From Flavobacterium sp. AED (GTDB lineage: Bacteria > Bacteroidota > Bacteroidia > Flavobacteriales > Flavobacteriaceae), in contig NZ_JSYM01000001.1 in NCBI RefSeq assembly GCF_000812945.1, positions 1,116,001-1,180,000 on the forward strand: DNA of 64,000 nt. The letters are read 5' to 3'. The notes beneath the pieces were generated by a model. That model saw nothing but the letters and a program-made list of their open reading frames with translations, searched no databases and was not told where the DNA came from. Position numbers and translations under genes: made by a program. Numbering within the stretch: position 1 is the first letter of the stretch; each line of letters begins with the position of its first letter. Below, one piece after another: positions 22,961 through 55,749 of this stretch.

Positions 22961-25291
22961 TTACTTCTTAACGCTGTATTTTTCAGTTCTGGCATCTTTG
23001 ATTACCCCTTTCCAGTTTAATCCGAAACCAAAATCATACACATTCCCGTTAGCATCTATATAAGGAGTCATGTCGTGAGGAACGTCTTCCATTTGTTTTT
23101 CAACGGTAGTCATGTTCAATGGCATTTGTAAAGGCAACAATCCAGAAGGCTCCGTTTTTCCAGAAATAATATCCATTAAAGCTTCTACTTGTACACCAAA
23201 TTCTCCCACTATTGCATCAACTTCTTTTTCAAATTCACCAAAAACCATTGGGTTTGAAATATTTACAGATACCAATACCGGCTTTCCATTCATCGCTTTT
23301 TTAGTTTCCAGAATCGTATTTAAATCCGGATAGGAATTTGATTTAGACGTTTTATTCAAATACGATCTGTTTGTAATCGTTGGATCAACCACTGGATCTC
23401 CGGCAGCAATACTTTGCGCTCTGGCATCGACTGCTGTATAGTCTTTTAATTGTAAACTGATTGGAACGTATCCATTTCCTCCGGCTTCTCTATCGGCTTT
23501 ACTATATCCGCCGCTTATTGGACTTTTGATAAATACGATGGCAAAATCAGCTTTAGCAGGATCATCCGTTACGGTATAATATTTTTTAATCAATTCTAAA
23601 TTAATAGGGTACTCGATTTTTTCAGGAGATGGTTGACCAAAAAAGTTGATACTCGCAGGAGTAACTCTTTTCGGGATATATACGGTCTTTCCTTTTGCGA
23701 TTGGCAAGGTCTTGTTTTGATTTTTAATCATCACAATAGATTTCAATTGTGTGTCATAACCTGCTTTCATAAATTCAGGTTGACCTACAATTGCTTTGGT
23801 CTCATTAGCATCTAAATAAGAATTTTCAAATAATCCCACTCTAAAAATATTCAAAAGTAAACGAACCGCTGATTGCTCAAAACGCTTGCGCATAAAAGTT
23901 TCGCCATGTTCTTTAATGCCTATTTGGTACGCTTCAAGTACTGGCTTGATGTCGTTATTTCCACCAAATTGATCCACCCCGGCCATCATAACTTTGTAAT
24001 GTCTTTCGGCAATACTTAATTTTTCAACACCCCATGATTTACCAGCAAAGACATCAGGTGTAGGTCCTTCATTGGCTGTAATTAACCAATCCGTACAGAC
24101 CACCCCGTCATAACCGTATTTATTTCTCAATAAATCAGTAACGATGTATTTACTAAATCCGTTTCCAACATTCTCACCGTATTTTTTATCCTGATTATAG
24201 GAGATAGTGTAATAAGGCATAACCGCCGATGCTTTTTTAGTTTTTCCTTTCAATTTAAAAGCGCCTTCTAAAAAGGTTTTTAAATGGGTTTCAAAGTTAT
24301 TACCTGGATACACGGCAAATTTTCCATAAGCAAAATGTCCATCACGACCTCCTTCTTCCGGACCTCCACTTGGCCAATGTTTTACCATTGCGTTGACACT
24401 TTGATTTCCCCATCCATCATAAACAGCAATTGATTTAGGTGAGGTTTGAAATCCATCTACATAGGCTCTTGCCATGTCTGTGGCTAATTTTGGGTCTTCG
24501 CCAAAGGTGCCTACAAAACGATTCCATCTTGGTTCTGTCGCTAAATCAATTTGTGGAGATAAGGCTGTAGTAATTCCTAAGGCTCTGTATTCCTTGGCTG
24601 CAATAGATCCAAATTTCTCTGTAATAGCGGGGTCAAATGTTGCTGCCAATCCTAATTCCTCAGGCCATTGTGATATGGAACCACCCGATCCTGCATTGTA
24701 TTCAGAATCTTTATTGGCACCATTTCTTGGGTCAGAACTGTTATTGGATGGAATTCCCATCCCAATCCCTTCCACTAATGCTTGTATGTTGTTATTCCAT
24801 TCTGCCGCAATTACCGGGCTTTGAACCGAAGTCATTAGCACATGGCGTAAATTGTCATTGGTTAAAAATGCAATTTGTTGATCGGATAAATCCGAAGGTT
24901 TTGCGCCACTTTTAGAAAATGGTTTTTCATTATACGTTCCGGTAAACATTCCTGCTTCCTGTGCCGGCACAGATTGATGTCGGCTATATAACATTAATCC
25001 GGCCATTTGATCCACTGTCATTTTGGTGGCAAGATCTTTGGCACGTTCCGCTACCGGTTTTCTCCAATCTTCATAAATATCTAACTTCCCGTTTTTATTC
25101 AAGTCTTTAAAAGCTAAACCATCTACTTGTATGATTTTAACTCCTGATTTGGGTGAATAGCCTAATGTTTGGCCTCCTTTATTTTGAACAATAGAGTAAG
25201 AACCTTTAGGCGTTTCCGTCCATTTTTTTTGGGCATAAGTTTGCGTTCCAACAAGTAAAATTAACGCAGGTAGTACAATTCCTTTTTTCAT
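22961..25291 (-). CDS. Glycoside hydrolase family 3 beta-glucosidase-type enzyme, exported
   Basis: The signal peptide ends near QTYAQ (residue 21). The 776-residue enzyme has the GH3 (alpha/beta)8 domain with the nucleophile Asp401 in YDGVVCTDW, the KHWPSGGPEEGGRD substrate-binding loop, and a C-terminal alpha/beta sandwich. Residues 63-74 (DLNKNGKLDIYE) form a complete EF-hand calcium loop close to the N-terminus, unusual for simple GH3 enzymes. GH3 members remove glucose or xylose from the non-reducing end of beta-linked sugars. It is probably periplasmic. A promoter lies at 25425-25458 with a site resembling those at the GH13 and GH97 genes. Confidence 0.93.
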   Translation of the reverse strand: MKKGIVLPALILLVGTQTYAQKKWTETPKGSYSIVQNKGGQTLGYSPKSGVKIIQVDGLAFKDLNKNGKLDIYEDWRKPVAERAKDLATKMTVDQMAGLMLYSRHQSVPAQEAGMFTGTYNEKPFSKSGAKPSDLSDQQIAFLTNDNLRHVLMTSVQSPVIAAEWNNNIQALVEGIGMGIPSNNSSDPRNGANKDSEYNAGSGGSISQWPEELGLAATFDPAITEKFGSIAAKEYRALGITTALSPQIDLATEPRWNRFVGTFGEDPKLATDMARAYVDGFQTSPKSIAVYDGWGNQSVNAMVKHWPSGGPEEGGRDGHFAYGKFAVYPGNNFETHLKTFLEGAFKLKGKTKKASAVMPYYTISYNQDKKYGENVGNGFSKYIVTDLLRNKYGYDGVVCTDWLITANEGPTPDVFAGKSWGVEKLSIAERHYKVMMAGVDQFGGNNDIKPVLEAYQIGIKEHGETFMRKRFEQSAVRLLLNIFRVGLFENSYLDANETKAIVGQPEFMKAGYDTQLKSIVMIKNQNKTLPIAKGKTVYIPKRVTPASINFFGQPSPEKIEYPINLELIKKYYTVTDDPAKADFAIVFIKSPISGGYSKADREAGGNGYVPISLQLKDYTAVDARAQSIAAGDPVVDPTITNRSYLNKTSKSNSYPDLNTILETKKAMNGKPVLVSVNISNPMVFGEFEKEVDAIVGEFGVQVEALMDIISGKTEPSGLLPLQMPLNMTTVEKQMEDVPHDMTPYIDANGNVYDFGFGLNWKGVIKDARTEKYSVKK

Positions 25292-25411: not shown

Positions 25412-25427
25412 ACGAAAACGATTTCAA
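25412..25427 (-). promoter_or_regulatory. GH3 leader site, variant of the alpha-glucosidase motif
   Basis: The minus strand reads TTGAAATCGTTTTCGT. It matches the 16-nt site of the GH13 and GH97 leaders at 12 of 16 positions (AAATCGnTTTCGT all shared). It overlaps the -7 element, 120 nt upstream of the GH3 ATG. Confidence 0.45.
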
Positions 25428-25458
25428 ATATAATAAATAATGCGTCACATCAACACAA
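25425..25458 (-). promoter_or_regulatory. Promoter of the GH3 gene
   Basis: On the minus strand TTG (25458-25456), 23 nt, then TATATTTG (25432-25425). The -33 element lies inside the duplicated block at 25439-25493. It gives a leader of about 125 nt. Confidence 0.6.
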
Positions 25459-25493
25459 TGAAATAAAAATATTTTAAAAAAAATAGTTTCTGA
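25439..25493. repeat. Duplicated upstream block, copy A (GH3 promoter)
   Basis: It shares ACACAATGAAATAAAAAT and the following TTTTAAAAAAAA, plus flanking AATGYGTCA and GAA ends, with copy B at 26303-26355 (about 52 bp, few differences). A second AATGCGTCA lies at 25505-25513. Confidence 0.65.
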
Positions 25494-25554
25494 ATACGCT
25501 ATAAATGCGTCATTTAACACTCTTTTGTATCCTTAATAAATAGTTGACAAGGAC

Positions 25555-25583
25555 AAAAGCCTGACATTATCGTCAAGCTTTTT
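25555..25583 (-). terminator. Terminator of the small beta-barrel-like gene
   Basis: AAAAGCCTGAC (25555-25565) pairs with GTCAAGCTTTTT (25572-25583) with one mismatch. Same stem family as 37878-37905 and 40660-40686. Confidence 0.6.
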
Positions 25584-25614
25584 CATTTTTTCTACTTTTG
25601 GTAATACTATTGAT

Positions 25615-26250
25615 TTACAAGTTGTATCTAGCCCCTAATGTCCAATTGAATTTACCGTCAGATATAGTCTTATTAGCAAATCCTCTAACATCAAATTTTT
25701 TATTTATTTTATAAGTAATGGTTTCGGAAATACCGTAAGTATTATCCAGATCAAGACCGTAAAGTTGAGATACAAAACTAAAATCACCTTTGGTTATAGT
25801 TGTATTAAAAGCTAAAAAATTAGCTTCAAAATCATTGTTCTTGCCTTTACCATGTAAATAAAAAGTACCTATCGAAACGCTTTTGGATAACTCATAACTC
25901 GCGATTAATTCTTGGGCAAAGAAAGTGTCAACGACATAATCTTTACTGATTTGTAATGCTGGTAAATGGACTCCTATATTTACTTTTAATTTTTTGTCAA
26001 CTAATTTATATCGGGAGATAAAAACAATTCCTCTGGGAGTTAGATTACTTAATCGTATCGTAGACAATAAGTGAAACGAAAGTCGTTTGTTTTCATTTGT
26101 TCCTGCGTTAATTATTAAATGAGGATCTTTAGAGGTAAAGGTCGGGATAAAAGAGAATCCACCTGTACTCGCCTCAAAATTGGCGTATTGAGCATGCAAA
26201 AATGTGCTAAAAAAAAGAGATGTAATGATTACAAGTAAAGTTTTGTTCAT
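25615..26250 (-). CDS. Exported beta-barrel-like protein of unknown function
   Basis: This 211-residue protein has a signal peptide (MNKTLLVIITSLFFSTFLHAQ) followed by amphipathic beta-strands with aromatic residues near strand ends (KFNWTLGARYNL at the C-terminus), as in small outer-membrane beta-barrels. The final Leu rather than Phe is atypical but tolerated. It is not assigned to a named family. It is divergent from the DUF6377 regulator gene, and its promoter overlaps duplicated block B. It ends 323 nt before the GH3 start, so the two are probably separate units with similar control. Confidence 0.6.
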   Translation of the reverse strand: MNKTLLVIITSLFFSTFLHAQYANFEASTGGFSFIPTFTSKDPHLIINAGTNENKRLSFHLLSTIRLSNLTPRGIVFISRYKLVDKKLKVNIGVHLPALQISKDYVVDTFFAQELIASYELSKSVSIGTFYLHGKGKNNDFEANFLAFNTTITKGDFSFVSQLYGLDLDNTYGISETITYKINKKFDVRGFANKTISDGKFNWTLGARYNL

Positions 26251-26290
26251 AAAATAAAATTAGATGTATTTTTTTTTTCGAAATAAATTA

Positions 26291-26322
26291 CAAATGTATA
26301 ACAATGTGTCAATCAAACACAA
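26291..26322 (-). promoter_or_regulatory. Promoter of the small beta-barrel-like gene
   Basis: On the minus strand TTG (26322-26320), 21 nt, then TACATTTG (26298-26291), an exact TAnnTTTG. The -33 element lies in the duplicated block. Confidence 0.6.
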
Positions 26323-26355
26323 TGAAATAAAAATGTTTTAAAAAAAACGTTCAGA
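26303..26355. repeat. Duplicated upstream block, copy B
   Basis: Copy of the 25439-25493 block, placed between the beta-barrel-like gene (minus) and the DUF6377 regulator (plus). The core ACACAATGAAATAAAAAT is identical to copy A. Confidence 0.65.
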
Positions 26356-26532: not shown

Positions 26533-28182
26533 ATGAATAAATTTTCAGCTTTACTTATCGCATTGATTTTTCCCGTTTTTCTTTTCGGTCAAGTTAAAAA
26601 CGATTCATTATTAAAAGAACTGGATAATAGCGTCAATGAATATGGGTTGTATTTAAATAGAAAAGAGGCCGATATAAATAAACTTAAAGGGCTTTTAAAC
26701 TATACTGCTACAGACCTGCAAAAATTAGATATTTATGGCAAATTGTATGTTCAATATAAAGCATACCAGTCGGATTCAGCATTAATTTACGCTAGGAAGA
26801 GTTTATTAATTTCCCAGAAATTAAAAAATACAAACAAAGTATACGAAGCAAAATTAAACGTTGCCTCCATAATGGGAACTTTAGGAATGTATAAGGAATC
26901 CCTTGATATATTGGAAACAATAAACATCCATTTGACACCAAATTTAAAGGGAACCTATTATTGGACGAATCGGATTATCTATGGTTATTTGAATGATTAT
27001 GGGGCTTCCAGTCAAGAAAAAAAGGAATACGGTGCGCTGACAAAAAAATATAGAGATTCAGCAATGCTTTATTTTCCGCCAAAATCCATAGAATTTGGTA
27101 TTGCCAAATCAGACCAATTATTGGAACATGGGCATGCGGATAAAGCGATAGCATTGCTGCAGGTATTCTTTTCAAAAACAGCAAAACAAGATCTGGACAG
27201 AGCTGTTATCGCCTATATTATTTCAGAAGGGTATCGATTGAAAAAAGACAAAGAACAGGAAGAAAAGTGGTTGATTGTCTCTGCAATATCGGATTTACAA
27301 TTGGTAAAAAAAGAAAATATTTCTTTGCGTAAATTGGCTTTCATCCTATATGAACAAGGAGATATAGACCGGGCCTATAAATACACTAAAAGATCATTAG
27401 AAGATGCTCTTTTTTGTAATGCCAAATTGAGAACCTACGAAATATCAAAAATGTTGCCCATTATCAATGAGGCTTATGAGAATAAAAATGAAACCAACAG
27501 AACGCAGCTAATCATTTTTTTAATTTGTGCCAGCATCTTATCCTTGTTCTTATTAGTTGTTTTGATGCTGCTTTTTAAACAAATGAAAAAATCAGCAAAT
27601 GCCCAAAAAGAAATAAGTTTAGCCAATACAAAACTGTCAATATTGAACAAAGAATTAAATGAAATCAATGAAAAGTTGAATCAAACCAATGCAACACTTG
27701 CCGAAGCGAGTTTGTTGAAAGAAATTTATATTGGCCGCTACATGGATCAATGTTCGGATTATATTGCAAAACAGGAGGAATACAGACGAAAATTGAATGT
27801 AATGGCTACCTCGGGGAAAATGAATGAACTCGTAAAAGCAGTGAAGTCAAATACTCCTATTGAGAAAGAATTAAAAGAATTTTATGCCAATTTTGACCAA
27901 ACCTTTTTACAATTATTTCCGAGTTTTATTGATGAGTTTTCGAAATTGTTAGTAGACAAAGAGGTACTTCATTTGAAACAAGGTGAGTTTTTAAACACGG
28001 AGTTAAGAATCTTTGCGCTGATCCGTTTGGGTATTAAAGACAGTACAAAAATTGCAGAATTTTTAAGGTATTCCGTATCGACGATTTACAATTATCGTTC
28101 CCAAATAAAAAATAAATCGGTAGGGCCTAGGGAAGAATTTGAATCCAAAGTCCTTTTGATTGGGTCATCTGGCAAAAACTAA
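26533..28182 (+). CDS. DUF6377 membrane-spanning TPR/HTH regulator (SusR-like), copy 1
   Basis: In order: signal peptide or N-terminal anchor (to about residue 20), a TPR-like helical sensor (about 60-310), one membrane helix (LIIFLICASILSLFLLVVLMLLF, about 324-346), a coiled coil, and a C-terminal HTH (ELRIFALIRLGIKDSTKIAEFLRYSVSTIYNYRSQ). This is the plan of DUF6377 proteins and of SusR, which senses maltose-type sugars in the periplasm and activates starch genes in Bacteroides. It is 549 residues. The next gene, 271 nt downstream on the same strand, is a GH13 alpha-glucosidase, its likely target. A paralogue lies at 54103-55749. Confidence 0.85.
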   Translation: MNKFSALLIALIFPVFLFGQVKNDSLLKELDNSVNEYGLYLNRKEADINKLKGLLNYTATDLQKLDIYGKLYVQYKAYQSDSALIYARKSLLISQKLKNTNKVYEAKLNVASIMGTLGMYKESLDILETINIHLTPNLKGTYYWTNRIIYGYLNDYGASSQEKKEYGALTKKYRDSAMLYFPPKSIEFGIAKSDQLLEHGHADKAIALLQVFFSKTAKQDLDRAVIAYIISEGYRLKKDKEQEEKWLIVSAISDLQLVKKENISLRKLAFILYEQGDIDRAYKYTKRSLEDALFCNAKLRTYEISKMLPIINEAYENKNETNRTQLIIFLICASILSLFLLVVLMLLFKQMKKSANAQKEISLANTKLSILNKELNEINEKLNQTNATLAEASLLKEIYIGRYMDQCSDYIAKQEEYRRKLNVMATSGKMNELVKAVKSNTPIEKELKEFYANFDQTFLQLFPSFIDEFSKLLVDKEVLHLKQGEFLNTELRIFALIRLGIKDSTKIAEFLRYSVSTIYNYRSQIKNKSVGPREEFESKVLLIGSSGKN

Positions 28183-31179: not shown

Positions 31180-31743
31180 ATGGAAGCAATTTTAAGAAGA
31201 CAAATTGAGAAAATAGTAAAATTAACGGATGATGAATTTCAATTGGTACTCTCGTACTTTTCGGTGGGTAAATATAAAAAACATCAATACATTGTGCAAC
31301 AGGGAAATTCCGTTCCGGATGTACATTTCGTAGTAAAGGGTCTCTTAAAATCTTTTTATATAGACAAATCAGGTAAGAATCATATTCTGCAATTTGCCAT
31401 GGAAGATTGGTGGATAACGGATAACCAGGGTTTTTATAATAAACAGAATGCCACGCTCAATATTGATTGCTTAGAAGATGCACAAACCTATTCTATCACT
31501 CTTGATAACAGAGAAAAGCTATGTGTCGAGTCACAGAAAATGGAATTCTTCTTTTTGCAGAAAATGACAGCCGGTAATATTGCGCTTCAAAACCGTATTC
31601 TCTCGCTTATGAGCAAGAATTCAGAGGAACGATACACGCAATTTATCCAATTATATCCGGATTTGATTCACCGCATTCCTAAAACTTTGATAGCATCCTA
31701 TCTGGGTATTTCAAGAGAAACATTGAGTCGTCTATCACATTGA
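31180..31743 (+). CDS. Crp/Fnr family transcriptional regulator
   Basis: The 187-residue protein has the cyclic-nucleotide-like beta-barrel domain (residues ~20-115, QYIVQQGNSVPDVHFVVKGLLKSFY) and a C-terminal winged helix with recognition motif IASYLGISRETLSRL. Bacteroidota members seldom bind cAMP; the effector is unknown. The protein stops directly after SRLSH, a few residues sooner than many relatives. The SDR reductase gene begins 96 nt downstream on the same strand and is its likely target. Confidence 0.88.
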   Translation: MEAILRRQIEKIVKLTDDEFQLVLSYFSVGKYKKHQYIVQQGNSVPDVHFVVKGLLKSFYIDKSGKNHILQFAMEDWWITDNQGFYNKQNATLNIDCLEDAQTYSITLDNREKLCVESQKMEFFFLQKMTAGNIALQNRILSLMSKNSEERYTQFIQLYPDLIHRIPKTLIASYLGISRETLSRLSH

Positions 31744-43975: not shown

Positions 43976-45016
43976 ATGCAAAAAATAAGAACTGCTTTAC
44001 TTTCCTACGGAATGTCTGGAAAAGTATTCCATGCTCCGTTTATATCATTCCATGAAGGATTTGAACTGATTGGTTCATGGGAAAGAAGCAAAAAACTGAT
44101 ACGCGAGGATTACCCTTTGGTTAAAAGTTATGCCACTATGGAGGCTTTACTCGAAGATGATGTCGATTTGGTGATTGTAAATACGCCAGTGGACACGCAT
44201 TATGAATATGCCAAAAAAGTATTGCTTGCGGGAAAACATGCCATTGTCGAAAAAGCATTTACCACAACCGTTGCCCAAGCGCAGGAATTAGCTGCTTTGG
44301 CAAAAGAAAGGGGAGTTAAGCTCGCCGTTTTCCAAAACAGAAGATGGGACAGCGATTTCAAAACCGTGCAAAAAATTATTTCAGATAAAATGCTGGGTGA
44401 CATTGTGGAAGCCGAATTCCATTTTGACCGCTACAATCCGCTTTTGAGCCCAAAATCACACAAAGAAACTGCTAATTCCGGTGCTGGAATTCTAAAGGAT
44501 TTAGGTCCGCATTTAATTGATCAGGCCTTGTGTTTATTTGGTTTACCTGAATCTGTTTTTGCTGATATCAGAATTACGCGGGAACATTCTTTGGTAGATG
44601 ATTATATAGACATCTTGTTGTATTATCCTGATTTCCGTGTCCGATTAAAAGCGGGATTTTTTGTTCGAGAAGCAATTCCGGCGTTTGTTGTTCATGGTAA
44701 AAAAGGGTCTTTCTTGAAACCACGTGGCGATGTACAGGAAGATGATTTAAAACTGGGGAAAAAACCGAATCTCGACACTTGGGGGAAAGAGCAAAAAGAC
44801 AAAGAAGGTTTGCTTCATACGGAGTTCCATACCGATATATTAAAGGAAAATGTACCAACACTTCAAGGCAATTACTACGATTTTTTTGATGGAGTTTACA
44901 ATTCTATTTCAAATGATGTTCAAGAGCCGGTAACGGCGCAGGATGGGGTTCATGTCATGCAAATTATCGAAGCGGCAATACAAAGTAGCGTCCAAAAGAA
45001 AGCAATTAATTTGTAG
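43976..45016 (+). CDS. Gfo/Idh/MocA family oxidoreductase
   Basis: The 346-residue protein has an N-terminal Rossmann domain, with the loop LLSYGMSGKVFHAPF where the usual GxGxxG is altered to GMSGKV as in YdgJ/YhhX-type members, the EKAFTTTVAQA motif (EKPxxxx-type catalytic Lys region), and a C-terminal alpha/beta domain. It oxidises or reduces a sugar or cyclitol with NAD(P). The substrate is unknown. A long-loop terminator (45041-45104) follows. Confidence 0.9.
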   Translation: MQKIRTALLSYGMSGKVFHAPFISFHEGFELIGSWERSKKLIREDYPLVKSYATMEALLEDDVDLVIVNTPVDTHYEYAKKVLLAGKHAIVEKAFTTTVAQAQELAALAKERGVKLAVFQNRRWDSDFKTVQKIISDKMLGDIVEAEFHFDRYNPLLSPKSHKETANSGAGILKDLGPHLIDQALCLFGLPESVFADIRITREHSLVDDYIDILLYYPDFRVRLKAGFFVREAIPAFVVHGKKGSFLKPRGDVQEDDLKLGKKPNLDTWGKEQKDKEGLLHTEFHTDILKENVPTLQGNYYDFFDGVYNSISNDVQEPVTAQDGVHVMQIIEAAIQSSVQKKAINL

Positions 45017-45040
45017 ATTTCATCCAATGAATGTAATAAC

Positions 45041-45104
45041 TAACCGCAAATTTGCCAATTTAAAACATGCAGATGAATGGGTAAATTTGCGGTTATCACT
45101 TTTT
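45041..45104 (+). terminator. Terminator after the MocA-type gene
   Basis: TAACCGCAAATTT (45041-45053) and AAATTTGCGGTTA (45083-45095) form a 13-bp stem with a 29-nt loop, followed by TTTTT (45100-45104). Confidence 0.65.
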
Positions 45105-45196
45105 AAGTTGTACTAAATCCCCTCCTTTTTTATAAACAATAACGATATATTTTTGACGGGATGCGTTGTTTAGAGGTAATGAACGATTGCTTTTTG

Positions 45197-45204
45197 TACT
45201 TTTG
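45197..45204 (+). promoter_or_regulatory. -7 element before the MFS gene
   Basis: TACTTTTG, an exact TAnnTTTG, 29 nt before the TTG start at 45234. No TTG at the right spacing was seen. Confidence 0.45.
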
Positions 45205-45233
45205 ACGGTATAAAACTCTAAAATCAAATCCTT

Positions 45234-46445
45234 TTGATAGATTTAAACTTTTTAGGCAGGTTCAGAACCAAAGCAAAATTCAAAAAAACGTATAAAGATG
45301 CCAAGATTTCTTATTTAAATAGAATTCGATGGGCAGTATCTATGTTTTATTTTGGAATGGGATTGTGTTTTGCCACTTGGGCAAGTAGAATCCCGGATAT
45401 TAAAACAGCATTGCATTTAAGTTCAGGAGAATTAGGGTCAATATTATTTGCAGTTCCATTAGGACAATTGGTGGTTATGCCTTTTTCCGGAAAATTAGTC
45501 ACCCGTTTCGGGAGTCATCGCATCCTTATACTATCACTATTATTTTACGTTTTTAGTTTAACAAATCTTGGACTGGCTGCTCAGGCTTGGCAATTATCAC
45601 TTGGATTATTTGTATTTGGGATATTTGGAAATTTGGCAAACATAGCAGTAAATACACAAGGTGTTTATACCGAAGAACTTTTCAAGAAAACCATTATGTC
45701 TTCTTTTCACGGGATGTGGAGTTTTGCAGGATTTACTGGCGCATTAGTTGGTTTAGGAATGTTAGCACTGGAACTAACGCCGTATGAACATTTTTTAATA
45801 GTAGCCGGTATTGTACTTTTGATGATTGCTTTTAATTATAAATTCCTGATAAAAGCCAAAGAAATCATCAAAACCGAAAAGAAAAAATTATTTACAAAAC
45901 CGGACAGTGCCTTAATTTGGCTGGGTATAATTGGTTTTTGCTGCATGGCCAGCGAAGGGGTTATGTTTGACTGGAGCGGTGTTTATTTCAAAGATGTCAT
46001 CAAAGCACCCGGACCATTGGTTATTTTAGGCTATACTTCTTTTATGATAATGATGGCTGGAGGACGATTTTTTGGTGATGGCCTGATACATAAATTTGGA
46101 AGAAAACCAGTAATGCAAATCAGCGGAATTATTATTTCACTGGGATTATTTACCTCAGTATTTTTTCCATATATAATACCGTCAACTATTGCATTTATGT
46201 TTGTTGGACTTGGGGTTTCCACCATTGTTCCTACCTTATACAGCATTGCAGGGAAAAACCCAACGGTACCTCCTGGTGAAGCTTTAACAATCGTTTCAAG
46301 CGTAAGTTTTCTTGGATTTTTAATGGGTCCTCCCGTTATAGGATATATTGCAGAATTGTCCAGCTTGCGATTTTCATTTGCCTTTATAGGTGTTTTTGGT
46401 TTTTTAATTGCATTCATGGTTTCCAGAATCAAGGCAATTCAATAG
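45234..46445 (+). CDS. MFS transporter
   Basis: The 403-residue protein has 12 predicted membrane helices, loop motifs of the major facilitator superfamily (GKLVTRFGSHRILI between helices 2 and 3, and HKFGRKPVMQISG in the second half) and a short cytosolic N-terminus. The substrate is unknown; its neighbour is a MocA-type sugar oxidoreductase, so a sugar or polyol is possible. The TTG at 45234 is used because it fits the -7 element at 45197 and no ATG precedes the first helix. A repeat (46447-46563) follows the stop immediately. Confidence 0.85.
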   Translation: MIDLNFLGRFRTKAKFKKTYKDAKISYLNRIRWAVSMFYFGMGLCFATWASRIPDIKTALHLSSGELGSILFAVPLGQLVVMPFSGKLVTRFGSHRILILSLLFYVFSLTNLGLAAQAWQLSLGLFVFGIFGNLANIAVNTQGVYTEELFKKTIMSSFHGMWSFAGFTGALVGLGMLALELTPYEHFLIVAGIVLLMIAFNYKFLIKAKEIIKTEKKKLFTKPDSALIWLGIIGFCCMASEGVMFDWSGVYFKDVIKAPGPLVILGYTSFMIMMAGGRFFGDGLIHKFGRKPVMQISGIIISLGLFTSVFFPYIIPSTIAFMFVGLGVSTIVPTLYSIAGKNPTVPPGEALTIVSSVSFLGFLMGPPVIGYIAELSSLRFSFAFIGVFGFLIAFMVSRIKAIQ

Positions 46446-51670: not shown

Positions 51671-53791
<2,121 letters not shown>

Positions 53792-54102: not shown

Positions 54103-55749
54103 CTATTTTAAATTGGTACCTATACGCATTACTTTTGCTTCAAATTCTTCCCGTGGACCTGCTGCTTTGTTTTTGAGTTGTGAACGGTAATTGTAAATAG
54201 TGGATACAGAATAGCGAAGAAATATTGAAATTTTTGCGCTATCCTTGATGCCCAAACGAATCAGGGCAAAGATTCTCAATTCCGTATTCAGCAGTTCACC
54301 GTCCTTTAATTGTGTTGCTTCATCATCAATCAATAAAGCTTTAAACTCTTCGATAAAATCAGGAAAGAGTTGCAAGAATGTTTTGTCGAAATTAGTATAA
54401 AATGCTGCGAGCTCATTTTCGATAAACTGTTTCGATTTTACGGCACTGATCAAGTCGTTCATTTTCCCCGTAGTCGCCATAACATTCAATTTTCGGCGGT
54501 ATTCGTCTAATTTGCCAATGTAATCAGAACACTGGTCCATGTAACGGCCAATGTATATTTCTTTCAAAAGATTGGCTTCGGTCAGCGTATAATTGGTCTC
54601 ATTCAATTTCTCAATAAATGTATTTAATTCGGCATTCAGTTCAGAAAGCTTGGTGTTGGCCAAACTTAAATCCTGTTTTGCTTTGGACAATTTTTTCATT
54701 TGCTTAAAAAGTAAAAAAAGCACCGCCAACAAGAACACCGATAGTATACTGGCACTTATCAAAAATAGCATTAATTGGAGTCGGTTGGTTTCATTTTGTT
54801 TTTGATACGCCTCGTTAATGATGGGCAGCATCTTAGAGATTTCATACGTCCTTAAACGCGCATTGCAAAAAAGGGCATCTTCGAGGGAACGTTTTATATA
54901 TTTATAAGCGCGGTCAATATCTCCATTTTCATACATTAGAAAAGCCAAAGAACGCAACGAAATATATTCCTTTTTGGCCAACTGCAAATCAGAAATAGCA
55001 GAAATTGTCAACCATTTTTTCTCCTGTACATGGTCCTTTTTTTCGCGATATGCCTGCGAAATAATATAGGCAATGACAGCTTTATCAGGACTATTAGGAG
55101 CAATATTCGGAAAATAGTTCAGCAATAAATGCAGTGTCTCATTGAGTTTTCCAGCGTCAATAAGCGTGCTGGACTTCGCCATAATATAAGCACTTGATTG
55201 CGTTGGATAAAAATTTAAGGAGGAATCACGGTACTTTTTGGTTAACAGAATATATCTTTCTTTTTCCTGAGGTGAAGCCGCATAATCAGACATATATCCA
55301 TAAACCACACTGTTTACGGTAAAATAATATCCTTTTAGGTCGGGAGTTGTATTGATGTTGATGGTATTAAGGATGTCAGTCGCTTCTTTGTACATTCCTA
55401 ATGTTCCCATGATGGAAGCCAGATTTAATTGGGCATCATTTAGCTTTCGGGCATCATTCAGCTTTTCGGCTATTTGAAAACTTTTTCGGGCGTAAATCAA
55501 TGCCGAGTCCGACTGATATAATTTATATTCCGAATACAATTTTCCGTAAATGGCATATTTTTGAAGATCAGCGACAGTGTATTGTAGCAGTCCTTTGAGT
55601 TTGTTTATTTCAGTCTCTTTTTTATTCGAATACAATTGGTAATCAGTTACAGTTTTATCCAATTCATCCAACAGTGAATCAAAATTATTTTGCCCAAAAA
55701 GAAGAACAGGAAATAGCGATGCAATAAGTAATGTCAAAAATCGATTCAT
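54103..55749 (-). CDS. DUF6377 membrane-spanning TPR/HTH regulator (SusR-like), copy 2
   Basis: The 548-residue paralogue of the 26533 protein has the same order: N-terminal leader, TPR-like sensor, membrane helix (LMLFLISASILSVFLLAVLFLLF), coiled coil and C-terminal HTH (ELRIFALIRLGIKDSAKISIFLRYSVSTIYNYRSQ). The HTH regions are nearly identical, so both may bind the same DNA; sensor regions differ more (for example TPDLKGYYFTVNSV). The next gene on the strand is GH97, its probable target. The core promoter region TTATTTTTACA is shared with copy 1. Confidence 0.85.
   Translation of the reverse strand: MNRFLTLLIASLFPVLLFGQNNFDSLLDELDKTVTDYQLYSNKKETEINKLKGLLQYTVADLQKYAIYGKLYSEYKLYQSDSALIYARKSFQIAEKLNDARKLNDAQLNLASIMGTLGMYKEATDILNTININTTPDLKGYYFTVNSVVYGYMSDYAASPQEKERYILLTKKYRDSSLNFYPTQSSAYIMAKSSTLIDAGKLNETLHLLLNYFPNIAPNSPDKAVIAYIISQAYREKKDHVQEKKWLTISAISDLQLAKKEYISLRSLAFLMYENGDIDRAYKYIKRSLEDALFCNARLRTYEISKMLPIINEAYQKQNETNRLQLMLFLISASILSVFLLAVLFLLFKQMKKLSKAKQDLSLANTKLSELNAELNTFIEKLNETNYTLTEANLLKEIYIGRYMDQCSDYIGKLDEYRRKLNVMATTGKMNDLISAVKSKQFIENELAAFYTNFDKTFLQLFPDFIEEFKALLIDDEATQLKDGELLNTELRIFALIRLGIKDSAKISIFLRYSVSTIYNYRSQLKNKAAGPREEFEAKVMRIGTNLK

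Follow-up and report, generated by a model that had tools for sequence, protein, structure and literature searches.

Duplicated promoter blocks at a GH3 gene and an adjacent barrel gene of Flavobacterium sp. AED as probable operators of an NrtR-family repressor

Two similar blocks of non-coding DNA in Flavobacterium sp. AED, one in front of a GH3 glycoside hydrolase gene and one in front of the adjacent "barrel" gene, are probably two operators of a sugar-responsive NrtR-family repressor that we refer to as nudix1. As judged by sequence comparison, the conserved part of these blocks is a dyad that recurs at the GH3, barrel and nudix1 promoters. This predicted operator is a 21-bp inverted repeat, ATTGYGT-N7-ACRCAWT, that would extend from approximately -33 to a position just upstream of the TAnnTTTG -7 box. 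All positions are those of the window, by which we mean the whole stretch of 64,000 nt that was analyzed (GCF_000812945.1, NZ_JSYM01000001.1:1,116,001-1,180,000). It belongs to a genome of 3.93 Mb (G000) that is close to that of F. gawalongense, the SusR-like regulators of the two being 95% identical. The features of interest are listed in Table 1. The best PDB match of the GH3 gene product is a beta-glucosidase. The barrel protein has no match to Pfam or NCBIfam, and its predicted structure contains strands at a very low confidence (pLDDT 36). The SusR-like gene passes the SusR_regulator model NF058541 with 581.7 bits (cut-off 480) and is followed on its 3' side by a GH13 gene on the plus strand. 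A second SusR-like (DUF6377) gene is located at 54103-55749, with a GH97 gene (51671-53788) downstream; these two DUF6377 matches, both in the window, are the only ones in the entire genome.

Table 1. Features of the two blocks and their neighbouring genes (window positions; operators are predicted).
Feature	Position	Strand	Basis
GH3 family glycoside hydrolase, 776 aa, predicted target gene 1	22961..25291	-	Pfam PF00933/PF01915
TAnnTTTG -7 element TATATTTG, GH3 promoter	25425..25432	-	sequence, spacing table
Operator 1 (predicted), ATTGTGT-TGATGTG-ACGCATT, GH3 promoter	25439..25459	-	0 mismatches to AWTGYGTN7ACRCAWT
AT-rich tract of block 1, 23/24 identical to block 2 tract	25460..25483	-	
Extra TGACGCATT, degenerate half-operator, 65 bp from operator 1	25504..25512	-	
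"Barrel" protein, 211 aa, signal-peptide-like start, predicted target gene 2	25615..26250	-	name from the original prediction
TAnnTTTG -7 element TACATTTG, barrel promoter	26291..26298	-	sequence, spacing table
Operator 2 (predicted), ATTGTGT-TTGATTG-ACACATT, barrel promoter	26303..26323	-	0 mismatches to AWTGYGTN7ACRCAWT
AT-rich tract of block 2	26324..26347	-	
SusR-like regulator (DUF6377), neighbour gene, outside the element	26533..28182	+	PF19904, NCBIfam NF058541

A repeat search aligned positions 25436-25483 with 26300-26347, a 48-nt match with 41 identical positions (85%) at a spacing of 864 bp. This was also the best ungapped 48-bp match between positions 25000 and 26900, whereas 100 dinucleotide-preserving shuffles of the region averaged 29.8 identities and never exceeded 33. 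The duplication claimed in the original prediction is therefore real, but the ends given there, 25493 and 26355, are too long since the similarity stops at 25483 and 26347. The sequence ACACAATGAAATAAAAAT is located at 25453 and 26317, and its first 17 bases occur as exact matches only at these two positions of the genome; with two mismatches allowed, the 17-bp pattern finds 16 sites in the genome as compared to 12 for the reversed control and thus adds no information to the two exact matches. Minus-strand TAnnTTTG elements were found at both blocks, as had been predicted. The third copy of AATGCGTCA that had been reported is also present, starting at 25504 instead of 25505, and by eye the half-operator at this position is only partly kept in the GH3 promoter of genome G010. 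Block 2 is located between the divergently oriented barrel and SusR-like genes, and it belongs to the barrel gene, towards which its promoter points.

To define the conserved element, we searched for the GH3 protein in 199 Flavobacterium genomes and found it in 18 of them at E<=1e-200, with at least 77% identity in 11. The 21-bp inverted repeat (at most 1 mismatch) is present in 8 of these 11 genomes, upstream of the GH3 gene or, in G104, upstream of the barrel gene that leads the pair, and also in F. gawalongense. Operator 1 has counterparts in the GH3 promoters of eight genomes (G000 included), and operator 2 has counterparts at the barrel genes of G010 (1 mismatch), G092 and G104. Altogether, 12 sites at GH3 or barrel promoters were collected from nine genomes at no more than 1 mismatch. 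All 12 are positioned 4-11 bp before TAnnTTTG, and 10 are preceded by TTC. Nine core bases together with Y5 and R17 are invariant in 12/12 sites and position 19 is kept in 11/12, part of this invariance being due to the selection at no more than 1 mismatch. In a comparison of nine promoters, from which the barrel sites other than that of G104 were left out, ten core positions were 100% identical in all pairs, while the mean identity of the flanks amounted to 31% (-70 to -25), 53% (the AT-rich 24 bp) and 34% (+21 to +60). The spacer between TTG and TAnnTTTG varies from 21 to 28 among the 12 sites, so that a conserved -33 element alone does not account for the dyad. According to the original prediction, the block would be only a recent copy if its conservation across species were confined to the -33 and -7 elements. 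In the related genomes the conservation is not confined in this way, since both dyad halves are kept and the spacer differs. The proposed co-regulation is thereby supported and can be sharpened: what is shared across nine genomes is an operator plus a promoter.

The original prediction also allowed for a recent duplication. This would make block 2 a functionless tandem copy of block 1 in which similarity has not yet decayed, and of the explanations considered here we regard it as the least probable. The AT-rich tracts of the two window copies share 23 of 24 positions, an identity that only 3 shuffles in 100000 attained when the last three bases were left in place, as compared to 13/24 for the tract of block 2 and that of the orthologous barrel promoter in G010. 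In addition, F. gawalongense has the block at its GH3 gene only. The tract of block 1, for its part, is identical in 21/24 positions to the GH3 promoters of G010 and G178 and in 15/24 to that of F. gawalongense. The operators themselves give a different picture. G010 and G092 carry separate operators before the barrel gene and before the GH3 gene, and the presence of this layout in two other genomes indicates that it is not recent; G104 has a single operator before its barrel-GH3 pair. Moreover, operator 2 is closer to the barrel operator of G010 (18/21) than to operator 1 (16/21), and the operator core is conserved where the flanks have diverged. A recent copy is thus supported for the 24-bp AT-rich tract only, and for the operators this explanation is already largely refuted. 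Block 2 may consist of an older barrel operator next to a locally copied AT tract, the low complexity of which makes the support for local copying weak. In F. gawalongense (L022), other genes separate the GH3 gene from the SusR-like gene (L022 792-1604, 4182-6861), and the region downstream of GH3 encodes a protein related (35% identity) to the barrel protein.

Our first hypothesis, derived from the neighbouring gene and the repeat at 65 bp, was that the blocks are bound by the SusR-like (DUF6377) regulator encoded next to them and that this protein activates the GH3 gene, the barrel gene and perhaps its own gene. The regulator gene exceeds its model cut-off and begins about 190 bp from block 2, and the further AATGCGTCA 65 bp away comes near the published repeat spacing, the predicted Bacteroides SusR motifs being described in PMC3878776 as direct repeats with a spacing of 67 or 77 bp. 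A close SusR-like gene (at least 57% identity, fragments included) is present in 7 of the 8 genomes that have both operator and GH3, and the palindrome occurs in 44/69 genomes with any DUF6377 gene as compared to 22/130 without (p=5e-11). However, the element is an inverted repeat, while the SusR sites described in that source are direct repeats with spacings other than 65 bp, and by eye the partner at 65 bp is not generally conserved. A search of 39 SusR-like loci with TTGTGTTNNNNTGACRCATT (at most 2 mismatches) returned only the GH3 promoter of F. gawalongense and a site inside the regulator coding region of another locus (L057). Close SusR-like genes show no association with the palindrome, which is found in 10/27 genomes with and 56/172 genomes without such a gene (p=0.66). 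In genomes lacking nudix1, the palindrome occurs in 1/15 of those with a close SusR-like gene and 3/24 of those with any DUF6377 gene, as opposed to 34/36 genomes that have nudix1 and no close SusR-like gene; it is present in 2/3 genomes with nudix1 and without any DUF6377 gene, which is a small sample. The SusR-like operator was dropped after the locus search and these co-occurrence counts, and the link between block and regulator gene that the original prediction had implied is not supported. We consider control of the blocks by this regulator improbable.

The preferred candidate, nudix1, is a 251-aa NrtR/AraR-type Nudix regulator encoded outside the window (G000:C3:421075-421827). It matches the NUDIX (PF00293), NrtR_WHD (PF21906) and AraR_C (PF19368) domains above cut-off, and thus has the NrtR-family architecture of a Nudix-like domain and a winged helix; the NCBIfam NtrR equivalog matched it below cut-off (125.7 of 400 bits). 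In the PDB it matches BtAraR best (1.9e-38), and its Nudix catalytic box, read by eye on an alignment as SILHGRTG, is degenerate with respect to the signature REUXEEXG (PMC4666351). When the genome was searched with TTGTGTTNNNNTGACRCATT, the next-best match (1 mismatch) was upstream of nudix1, and the site there also deviates from the palindrome by 1 mismatch. We found nudix1, defined as a match of at least 72% identity, in 48 of the 199 genomes, and inspected the upstream regions of the best 30 of these 48. Within 600 bp upstream, GYGT-N7-ACRC is present at 24 of the best 30 loci, the full palindrome (at most 2 mismatches) at 23 and a GCTT variant at none, the site being missing at 6. The exact AWTGYGTN7ACRCAWT occurs in 43/48 genomes with nudix1 and in 23/151 without (p=3e-21; reversed-pattern control, 11/48 and 16/151), an association that rests largely on the promoter of nudix1 itself. 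Where GH3 shows at least 77% identity (11 genomes), the operator is present in 8/8 genomes with nudix1 and in 0/3 without (G050, G197, G180). When all 18 genomes with GH3 are counted, the figure is 8/15 with nudix1, because seven further nudix1 genomes have more distant GH3 genes (67-68% identity) in whose analyzed stretch no site was found; these seven genes adjoin another regulator gene, nudix2. Three genomes, G178, G129 and G104, have no site at nudix1 itself and retain the one at GH3 or barrel.

The loci around nudix1 were also viewed by eye. The gene stands next to GH3-type genes, divergently and with the operator in between in L162, L174 and L175, and in G000 it adjoins GH3-, GH30- and GH5-like genes. 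An amylosucrase gene (PDB match 1.2e-147) is found within 1.5 kb downstream of nudix1 at 4 of the best 30 loci. In G010 (L177), a distant SusR-like gene (31% identity) is directly downstream of nudix1. The GH3 orthologues of G197 and G180 (L234, L235) have no operator; their neighbours look by eye like sugar-oxidoreductase and isomerase genes, which we presume may perhaps belong to a 3-keto-glycoside pathway.

Another dimeric regulator, either Crp/Fnr-like or an NrtR-like paralogue, might bind the palindrome and control nudix1 as well, which we consider unlikely, if somewhat less so than a recent copy or control by the SusR-like regulator. G000 has six NrtR-like matches at E<=1e-20, a cNMP-binding, Crp/Fnr-like protein is encoded nearby at 31180-31743, and a third exact palindrome of this genome (G000:C1:531174; L241 2675) is followed at a distance of about 200 bp by the gene for what by eye is a GntR-type regulator, thus a regulator of another type. 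However, the Bacteroides Crp-like motif given in PMC3878776, TATGTT-N4-AACATA, has another core and another spacing, nudix2 has a predicted operator of its own (ATTGCTT-N7-AAGCAAT), and the GYGT palindrome was found upstream in 0/6 and 0/4 loci of two other NrtR clades and in 1/2 loci of a third. The neighbours of the site at G000:C1:531174 have no evident link to GH3.

Allowing up to 2 mismatches, the palindrome finds 83 sites per strand in G000 as compared to 25 for the reversed control, which is too noisy for a list of regulon members. Of 20 further exact-palindrome loci that we chose, 10 have the site inside an ORF, 1 overlapping an ORF end and 9 outside ORFs. An exact palindrome is present at an MFS gene in G105 and in G046, the latter being without nudix1, and it is located between the two genes of an oxidoreductase-MFS pair that is homologous to the one at 43976-46445; the window copy of this pair is without palindrome. 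Exact palindromes also occur just 5' of orthologous efflux-adaptor-like genes in G003 and G153 (L240 2380, L247 1895), with a TAnnTTTG-like box by eye. In G168 one accompanies a GH3 gene of 624 aa, and G094 has a site almost identical to that of G168. G092 has identical exact palindromes near two contig ends (L239 2312, L246 4077), the neighbours of which show no evident link to sugar metabolism.

The assignment of the operators to nudix1 draws on the similarity to AraR of Bacteroides thetaiotaomicron (BtAraR, BT0354), a member of the NrtR family on which L-arabinose acts as a negative effector (PMC4666351). Both proteins combine a Nudix-like domain with an NrtR winged helix, and the operators assigned to both lie on the promoters of carbohydrate genes, those of AraR being arabinose genes and those predicted here a GH3 and a barrel gene. 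The candidate BtAraR site is described as a 21-bp motif with two semipalindromic copies before the arabinose operon; the DNA in the co-crystal contains GTGT-N7-ACAC, and according to the authors it is the contacts with the protein that define GTGT, with Arg180 intercalating between T8 and G9, the TpG step of GTGT (PMC4666351). The window operators share with the BtAraR operator of that source the core GTGT-N7-ACAC, its spacing and a semipalindrome of about 21 bp; they differ from it in their outer bases (ATTG/CAWT), and one of them has GCGT/ACGC on one side instead of GTGT/ACAC. According to by-eye mapping, nudix1 keeps Asp178, Arg180 and Asn181 of the BtAraR DNA-contact helix, but not all DNA contacts: Lys179 and Lys184 are replaced by Arg, Lys204 by His and Arg205 by Lys. 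Among the arabinose contacts, Arg86 and His131 are kept by the same kind of mapping, and Arg34 is replaced by Thr, for which reason we rejected nudix1 as an AraR orthologue.

Other known systems resemble the present one in part. XylR of Bacteroides (BT0791), from the same phylum, is likewise a sugar-gene regulator of the NrtR family (PMC3878776), with xylose genes as its targets. The SusR-like (DUF6377) regulators of Bacteroidota, one of which is encoded beside block 2, also control glycan genes, but they are membrane regulators whose predicted sites are direct repeats at a spacing of 67/77 bp, and the palindrome described here does not track close SusR-like genes. The box that follows all 12 sites agrees with the Flavobacterium sigma-A promoter consensus, which includes TAnnTTTG (PMC9723704); the dyad is an additional element at a variable distance from this box. 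Among the literature titles listed for NrtR/Nudix regulators with Flavobacterium, where subscription journals are sparsely covered, none concerned an NrtR-family sugar regulator of this genus.

A further view of the specificity is offered by nudix2, a second NrtR-type regulator whose gene is divergent from two others in seven genomes, a gene for a 748-752-aa protein and an orthologue of the GH3 gene. The motif ATTGCTT-N7-AAGCAAT was found in all seven intergenic regions and at the nudix2 gene of G000. Counting 14 of the 15 nudix2 loci (L272, which is incomplete, was left out), the GCTT operator is present at 13/14 and the GYGT palindrome at none. The position of BtAraR Arg180 is Arg in nudix1 (DRRNF, 30/30 of the best 30 of 48 loci) and Gly in nudix2 (NRGNF, 14/14 loci, the helix having been read in all of the 15 except L224). 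The nudix1 operator with GYGT contains the YpG step (24 of the best 30 of 48 loci), and this step is lost in the GCTT of nudix2. Arginine and YpG step are therefore lost together. A quite possible reading, which we put forward tentatively, is that a single residue and a single base step set two regulons apart, each of them controlling an orthologue of one and the same GH3 enzyme. What is seen is a correlation across two clades that may go back to one evolutionary event, and neighbouring contact residues also differ between nudix1 and nudix2. The third NrtR clade mentioned above also has DRRNF, with TTTGCGT-N7-ACGCATA at 1/2 loci.

Taken as operators of nudix1, the two blocks would function as follows. 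In the absence of its ligand, a nudix1 dimer would bind both operators and block RNA polymerase at the GH3 and barrel genes. A sugar, probably released from the glycans on which GH3 enzymes act, would move the winged-helix domains and free nudix1, by analogy with the effect of L-arabinose on BtAraR; we infer that this signal is probably a glucoside product. With one operator per gene, the adjacent barrel and GH3 genes would be switched together from separate promoters. The predicted overlap of operators and promoters fits repression, and activation would also be compatible with it. Because the operator logic matches that of the solved AraR-DNA complex, the prediction is directly testable. A predicted operator together with its candidate regulator is now available for glycan genes of Flavobacterium, and the nudix1/nudix2 pair would serve as a naturally occurring test case for the way in which DNA specificity is set by an intercalating arginine.
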